Assembly (NCBI RefSeq): GCF_000003815.2
Contig: NC_049986.1
Coordinates: 690,864-754,863, forward strand
DNA length: 64,000 nucleotides
Direction of reading: 5' to 3'
DNA from: Branchiostoma floridae
Lineage: Eukaryota > Chordata > Leptocardii > Amphioxiformes > Branchiostomatidae
A model generated the notes under the pieces. It had not been told where the DNA came from and did not search any database. It worked only from the letters and a program-made list of their open reading frames with translations. This document shows, one piece after another, positions 34,601-37,600 of this stretch. The stretch's first letter is position 1. Each line of letters opens with the position of its first letter. The translations under genes were made by a program, and so were the position numbers.

Positions 34601-37600
34601 GTAGACAATAGAAGTTTGTAATTTTGGTTTATTGAATAAGTTTCATAATCTAATTTACTCCAGACACACAATACTTTTGTGGCACAACACTTAGTATTGA
34701 TGCAATTGTACAACATGTAACATTCATGTTAATGTTTTGTAACATGCACTCTTTCTTAAACTGTAATATACTAAATACATTGTATGTATCACCAATTTTG
34801 TGCATTCAGTTGTGCCTTACTAGTAGTCATTACAGCATATTTACTAGTTTGGCATGCAAATTTTCTCCACTGTCTACAATTATGAAACGATAGCATTTCG
34901 TAACCAAATATTAAGTATTGTATTGATTGATCAGCAAAATGATAACTGTAAATTCATTTACTTTCCCTGTGGTTTTATTTTGTGGTAGGAGGGGAAAGAA
35001 AGTCTTCACAGAGTTTTAAATTTGCCATTGAAACAATACTATTGTATAGTAGAATGAAAAAAAATACATTCACTGTGTTATGATTTCAGAAGATGTGACA
35101 GCAAAAATCATGAAAACAAAGTTACCCTAAATATTTCAAAATTTACCATGAGACAAACTCTGAAAAGCAGAAGCTCAGATTGATAACATTCTTACCCCTT
35201 TCATAAGCCCACATCAGGCAAGTCTGGTTTTGCTGATCCTTCTCCTCCCCTTCTACTGACGGCTCCTGTTGCCTAGCAACCAGGTTCATGTCCGCATTGT
35301 TGTCCAGGAGAAACTGGACCAGTCGAATGTGGCCATGGTAACAGGCACTGTGGAGAGCTGGGGTGGGGAGGGGGGCAATGTCAGACAGAGGCAGTAGTAC
35401 TAGTAATCTACAATGTACTACATTGCACAAAATGTATGTGAAAAAGTGATAAAATAGCAGAGAACCTTCTGCATCACTAGCAACTCTTAACGTCATAGTT
35501 CTGACATTGGTTCAACAGCTTGACAATGTAAAAAAATGTAACTTATAGCTGAATATGAACAAAATGCACTCAGAAAATAATGTGAAGAGTTAGGCTGTTC
35601 ATTGGAGTGGTTATTTGTTACATGTTCCAGTGGACTGTGTACCAACAAGCAAAGGTTTCATCGAAGTGACACAAAGTGTAAAAAAGGTAAAATGCTGGTA
35701 GAACTCAACCTTCCTGTTTCCTAATCTCCTAAATACCCAATTAAAATCTGATGCAAAAAAAAGCTACCTAAACAGGCGGAAGCGGGGGAAGCTTGTGGTA
35801 AAATGGAAAGTTTTGAATTCAGCTTCTCCTGGTTCTAGGTTGGAAGACGAGTGTTACCAGGGATAAACAAGTCCACTAGCCCTATTGTCCAGGGCAAGCG
35901 AAAGTGCTGTTTGGGCAAGTGCATAACCTACCCTACTTGTCCGATCGGGCAAGTAAGATTTTTCCATTGATCTTAGTGCAATTTTAATATACTTGTTACT
36001 TTTTACAGTCATGACATCAAGCAATTGTCTACAGAGAATTCCATTGCTGGAAGTGTAAATGCATATACTAGTAACAGTGACATTTGAATTTTGGGCAAGT
36101 GAAAAATCGGTTCAGGCAAGTACATTTTTTATGTGCTTGCCCGATAGGACAAGTGGATTTTAGAAAACTTGTTCAACCCTGGTTACCTGTGTGCCCGTCC
36201 TGTCCCTGGTGGTTAACACTGACATCTTCCTGTCCTAACAGGAACTTCACCAGCTCCAGACTCCTCCCATTGGTACAGGCACTATGGGGGGGACACAAGG
36301 GACATGAACACTTGGACAATTACTAATCATAAGAATAGGTCACATATCAATCAGTCAGATCATCTAAAAAATTGGGGAACTTCCAGGTCAACACATAAAT
36401 GACGTACTGCAGTGTGCGAAATACTTTTCTGGGCCAGGTTGTACAATCTCTTTTCAACAAGCACAATGAACAGAGGACCACGGCTTTACGTGCTGTCCTA
36501 ATACCCCCCTCAAATGTAGCGAAAATCGATCGGACGAAGAGTCTGCGAGCTCTAAATTACGAGGAGGCATGAGCTTGACGGGAAGGGGGANNNNNNNNNN
36601 NNNNNNNNNNNNNNNNNNNNNNNNNNNNNNNNNNNNNNNNNNNNNNNNNNNNNNNNNNNNNNNNNNNNNNNNNNNNNNNNNNNNNNNNNNTTCTTCGTCG
36701 GCAGCAGGGTCATGACTTGTGGTTGTCTTGAGTTAGCAGTCTGGTCGTCCGATCGATTTTCGCTACATGTGAGGGGAGTATAAGGAATGTAGCCCTTTCC
36801 AGTAACATGCATGTAGGTTGACTGACACAGCACGAATCAAACTCACAGCTTCTAGTTCGAGAGGCAGGGTCGCTAACCACTATGCACACCATGCACATGT
36901 CTGCTTGAATCCTATGGTAATAAATGAGGGAGAGTTACAGACTATAGATCCCTCACCTGTGAAGGGGAGTTTCACTGAAGATGTTCTCCTTACTGAGACT
37001 GTCTCTTCCTGTGTGCTCGACAAGTTTCTTCACAGCTTCTACCTTTCCACCATAGCAGGCACTACAAAGTAAAAAAACACAAGACTTTGGAGGGGATTCA
37101 ATACATGCAGTTACAGCATAAAACACACACGTCAAATGAAAGGTACATCATGTACATTTGATTTGAGTGTTTTATGCTGCAAAAGATACACTTTTTTGAT
37201 AACATGCATTTCAAGACTATGACTATGTAATAATTCACTTGTGCAATGTGCATTATTGAAATATTCCAATCATCATCTTAGCTACCAACAACCTCAAAGA
37301 ATAGAAATTCTACAGAAAACTGATGAGTTAAGGTAAAATCAAGTCAGACTCTGAGACTGCCATATTTTTAGATATTCAGATGGCTCTTTCTATATCAATA
37401 CACTACAGAATAAAAATCACAAACTTACTGAGCAAATTCTATCTTAAATCTGCCTGACTATTAATGGATATAAATAGCACTTACAGATGATAATTACAAC
37501 TAGATGATCACATTTTGGAGTAAAACAATCAATTTAATTGTACAAATGTAGATGATAAGAAGGGGAAGAAGAAGAAAAAAGAAGAAGTACTAACAGATGC

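Follow-up and report, generated by a model that had tools for sequence, protein, structure and literature searches.

The splice donor of a TNNI3K-like exon in Branchiostoma floridae lies within the target duplication of a 324-bp MITE, such that intron positions +1 to +5 are the duplicated bases and everything from +6 onwards is transposon. The exon, provisionally number 8, was found in a stretch of 64,000 nucleotides (the window). The most probable account, and in our view a strongly favoured one, is that a non-autonomous element with hAT5/hAT6-like target duplications inserted by chance into the existing donor of intron 8, that the insertion survived through its target duplication, and that splicing is nearly unchanged, with no function for the element.

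The exon 8 donor and the element next to it

The minus-strand gene is a clear relative of TNNI3K. Its exons match one after another along the human protein, ankyrin repeats are followed by the TNNI3K kinase domain, and the best matches of the kinase piece are PDB chains of TNNI3K (E 1.1e-22). Because human residues ~47-65 have no convincing match, the gene model may lack an early exon, and the number given to exon 8 is provisional. The features around the junction of exons 8 and 9, and a second copy of the element, are as follows.

35196..35357, minus strand: exon 9, with acceptor CCCCAG/CTCTCC and donor GAAAGGG/GTAAG
35853..35857, minus strand: far copy of the target duplication, GTAAC after transposon CTG; a weak candidate donor
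35858..36181, plus strand (orientation arbitrary): the MITE, 324 bp, with ends CAGGGATAAACAAGT and CAGGGTTGAACAAGT; belongs to a family of copies
36172..36177, minus strand: possible in-frame cryptic donor GTTGAA, reading from +10, inside the transposon end
36182..36186, minus strand: exon-side copy of the target duplication, GTAAC, intron positions +1 to +5 of exon 8
36187..36281, minus strand: exon 8, in the ankyrin-repeat part of the TNNI3K-like gene, ending GGG CAC ACA G in phase 1
58839..59172, minus strand: second family copy, 76% identical, with CCAAC on each side (58834-58838 and 59173-59177)

When the CACAG end of exon 8 is joined to the bases that follow CCCCAG (35358-35363), the TNNI3K reading continues across the junction. 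The donor is then CACAG/GTAAC, followed by CAGGG, and the transposon begins at +6. The sequence-only reading of the window had placed GTAAC at +1 to +5 of this intron with transposon from +6, and both the sequence and the homology across exons 8 and 9 bear it out.

On the forward strand the element starts with CAGGGATAAACAAGT and finishes with ACTTGTTCAACCCTG, which from the opposite side reads CAGGGTTGAACAAGT; GTTAC abuts it on both sides. Its inverted ends span 20 nt and are 85% complementary, with the duplications counted in. It is short, has terminal inverted repeats and many near-identical copies, and has no evident coding capacity, the longest stop-to-stop frame within it being 85 aa (35854-36111, minus strand). 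That a MITE with GTTAC on each side occupies this place was thus read correctly from the start, and the repeat can be called a target duplication because family copies show 5- or 6-bp duplications at the same boundaries. Within the window, CCAAC on both flanks of the copy at 58839-59172 supports CAGGG ends and a 5-bp duplication. The family is represented a third time by a decayed piece that starts at 41731.

Several other observations were made in the window. Directly after the decayed third copy, at ~42104-42175 on the plus strand, there is by eye a sequence resembling the head of a tRNA-derived SINE; ARAGORN reports no tRNA genes in the window. The assembly has gaps of exactly 100 N each at 36591-36690 and 46589-46688, and since the former separates exons 7 and 8, the intron there need not have the length that the assembly shows. 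On the opposite strand, within the TNNI3K-like intron between the exon pieces at 34351 and 29271, lies a piece of a gene with leucine-rich repeats and an immunoglobulin domain (31208-33964, plus strand), with LRR_8 in 31208-31741 (E 5e-22) and LRR_8 (E 6.5e-11) together with Ig_3 (E 3e-19) in 32888-33961.

The MITE family, its superfamily and its targets

The family was searched for in a 513-Mb assembly of 431 contigs, in which the window was placed on contig C8. It is a high-copy family of 324-bp elements with ends CAGGG...CCCTG: there were 1877 first-look candidates, 40 of which were scored, and 286 intact right ends were counted genome-wide, against 2 matches to a reversed control pattern. 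The copy set comprised 39 of 41 listed places; the window copy was omitted, as was an incomplete match of 113 bases at 85%. Both ends could be located in all 39 copies, of which 37 measure 324 bp, one 323 bp and one 327 bp. An exact target duplication of 5 bp flanks 26 of the 39 and one of 6 bp flanks another 7 (L009, L024, L026, L027, L037, L041 and L044), so that the duplication is of near-fixed length. The remaining six (L019, L020, L022, L023, L032 and L046) have neither and were kept in every count; in L023 a 7-bp near-match takes the place of an exact duplication.

We take CAGGG ends to be compatible with hAT. According to PMC12730594, hAT5 and hAT6 are the names of those hAT families whose duplications measure 5 and 6 bp, and the MITE family resembles them in having duplications of both lengths, a mixture that blurs the division between the two. 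It differs in that its placement comes from ends and duplications only; a transposase-bearing partner with these ends was not found around hAT domains. The genome has 33 Dimer_Tnp_hAT matches. In 39 loci around hAT domains (184,488 bases, some overlapping, most reaching just 1.5 kb each way) the end motif matched 6 times, which is no excess over the ~14 expected by chance according to our own arithmetic. All six matches carry two mismatches, and two of them are the same place. As the loci scanned around hAT dimerisation domains show no excess of element ends, the assignment of this DNA transposon family to hAT is tentative.

Measured against the column majority, the window copy has 10 deviating columns over 324 bases and the other copies 0 to 5, but the latter had been ranked by their likeness to the window copy and are not a fair sample. 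Amphioxus heterozygosity is given as 3.2-4.2% in PMC12500494. The ~3% divergence of the window copy is of the same order, and to judge from it the element may have reached fixation or may segregate still. An empty-site haplotype was sought with both flanks in the same assembly; the window locus alone was found, with no second haplotype there.

Does the family aim at splice donors? AGGT in donor register precedes 3 of the 286 intact right ends, where ~1 would be expected from base composition (own arithmetic), and a single place has AGGT in the corresponding position at the left end; these counts lend no support to donor targeting. The window place is the one of the four AGGT places with a recognised exon upstream. 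At the other three no exon was evident by eye in three frames, but some frames hold open stretches of ~30 codons, so that these places may or may not be exonic. The 26 five-bp target sites share no strong motif. A preference for palindromic targets of the form GTNAC was also considered and dropped, as 1 of these 26 is such a palindrome. A genome this rich in transposon copies and introns should presumably contain a few insertions that hit a donor exactly. Separately, one copy (L032 and L053; contig C18, around 312000) has AGGTAAG before its end with no matching duplication opposite, and is perhaps a recombinant or has a deleted flank.

Donor strength, the far GTAAC copy and RNA folding

According to the proposed course of events, the gene was already there, and a transposon would have landed by chance among the first five bases of its intron 8. 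The target duplication preserved CAG/GTAAC at the exon, as can be seen in the sequence, while all from +6 became transposon. Because the insertion alters only +6 and beyond, splicing would continue from the exon-side GTAAC at about its old strength, and the element would be removed with the intron. The predicted energies of the U1 duplex are in keeping with this: computed for bare RNA, they are -8.5 kcal/mol for the present exon 8 donor and -8.5 kcal/mol for the joined empty site, against -5.0 kcal/mol for the far GTAAC. Compared with 19 other donors of the TNNI3K-like gene, some of them hand-picked, the value of -8.5 is surpassed by 11, equalled by 1 and not reached by 7, whereas a single one of the 19 is weaker than the far copy. 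The insertion thus looks nearly neutral for splicing. Some points count against this. The exon 8 donor has no G at +5, which makes it less than strong and possibly sensitive to its context; and the cryptic donor GTTGAA (-5.0 kcal/mol), which would add Gly-Asn-Gln in frame, counts against splicing that is unchanged.

The far GTAAC had been described in the sequence-only reading as a built-in competitor of the donor. A second GTAAC does stand at the element's other end, but that it competes in any meaningful way is not supported. If the two copies were competing donors, there would be two transcript forms, one of which would be 329 nt longer and would stop prematurely. Both copies are intact, and the far copy is preceded by a G, so that it is formally a possible donor. 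Its predicted pairing with U1, however, is 3.5 kcal/mol weaker, and splicing from it, 329 nt inside the intron, would bring in an in-frame stop after four codons (Gly-Asn-Gln-Gly). On this evidence we regard competing donors as very unlikely, and the far GTAAC would be a poor donor that is seldom or never used. More generally, the case suggests that copying a donor motif need not produce a competitor that works, since the part of the site that lies in the exon stays single. The exon-side GTAAC follows the CAG of the exon, the far one the CTG of the element.

A different role for the element could come from its structure. A hairpin formed by the transposon ends, with the donor at its base, might weaken or regulate the splicing of exon 8; the GTAAC copies, which are nearly palindromic, can pair with each other at four of five bases. 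The 20-nt inverted ends, whose complementarity takes in the duplications, favour such a hairpin, and with 40-nt flanks the donor is predicted to be closed for the most part, its mean unpaired value falling to 0.25 from 0.89 at the empty site. The prediction reverses, however, when at least 80 flanking bases are folded: the values are 0.54 with the element versus 0.22 without it at both 80 and 150 bases, and 0.53 versus 0.23 for the longest stretch. The element is thus predicted to fold on itself, and whether this opens or closes the donor varies with the length of flank folded. The donor is also transcribed ahead of the far arm, which speaks against the hairpin, and we consider it highly improbable as a cause of weakened or regulated splicing. 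Folding of the element ends may nevertheless affect exon 8 splicing to some degree. In its most developed form the idea is a structure-controlled donor: hairpin ends extended by GTAAC would close the exon 8 donor in part of the transcripts, filled and empty alleles would differ in exon 8 inclusion, and a three-codon in-frame variant would arise from the +10 donor. This, too, has a very small chance of being right. In the chance-insertion account, the insertion would have survived through protection of the donor by the target duplication and not through a function.

Comparison with introners and meaning of the insertion

It could be asked whether the element is an introner, which would have given rise to the intron by inserting into an exon. 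Among the arrangements reported for introners in PMC9860276 is a 5' splice site drawn from the target duplication; the likeness to the present case is that the donor GT belongs to the duplicated target site of a short element with inverted repeats. An introner, however, carries or recruits both splice sites, and here the acceptor (35358-35363) lies ~495 bases past the element and its duplication. The element is not itself the intron, and because those ~495 further intron bases with their own acceptor are outside it, it did not create the intron. Compared with the introners of PMC9860276, the intron extends well past the element, the acceptor is not at its edge and no intron gain is seen. There is next to no chance that the element is an introner.

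Two other systems may be compared. In PMC6593561, MITEs are reported at alternative splice sites in mulberry; the position at a splice site is shared, but the mulberry cases concern a plant and alternative splicing backed by RNA data, whereas alternative use of the exon 8 donor is hypothetical. In amphioxus, the MITE LanceletTn-2 lies in a gained intron of PRHOXNB, as mentioned in PMC5802833. Both are amphioxus MITEs tied to intron structure; LanceletTn-2, by that mention, goes with intron gain, whereas the MITE at exon 8 inserted at the donor of an intron that is not made of the element. The exon 8 insertion is a new instance of an already known kind of event. A search of open-licence papers by title or abstract start found none on this insertion, and we make no claim of a first report.

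The insertion illustrates cleanly how a DNA transposon can hit a splice donor and leave the gene unbroken, its target duplication restoring the bases read by U1. Filled and empty alleles, should both exist, would allow the weight of the sequence past +5 to be tested directly.
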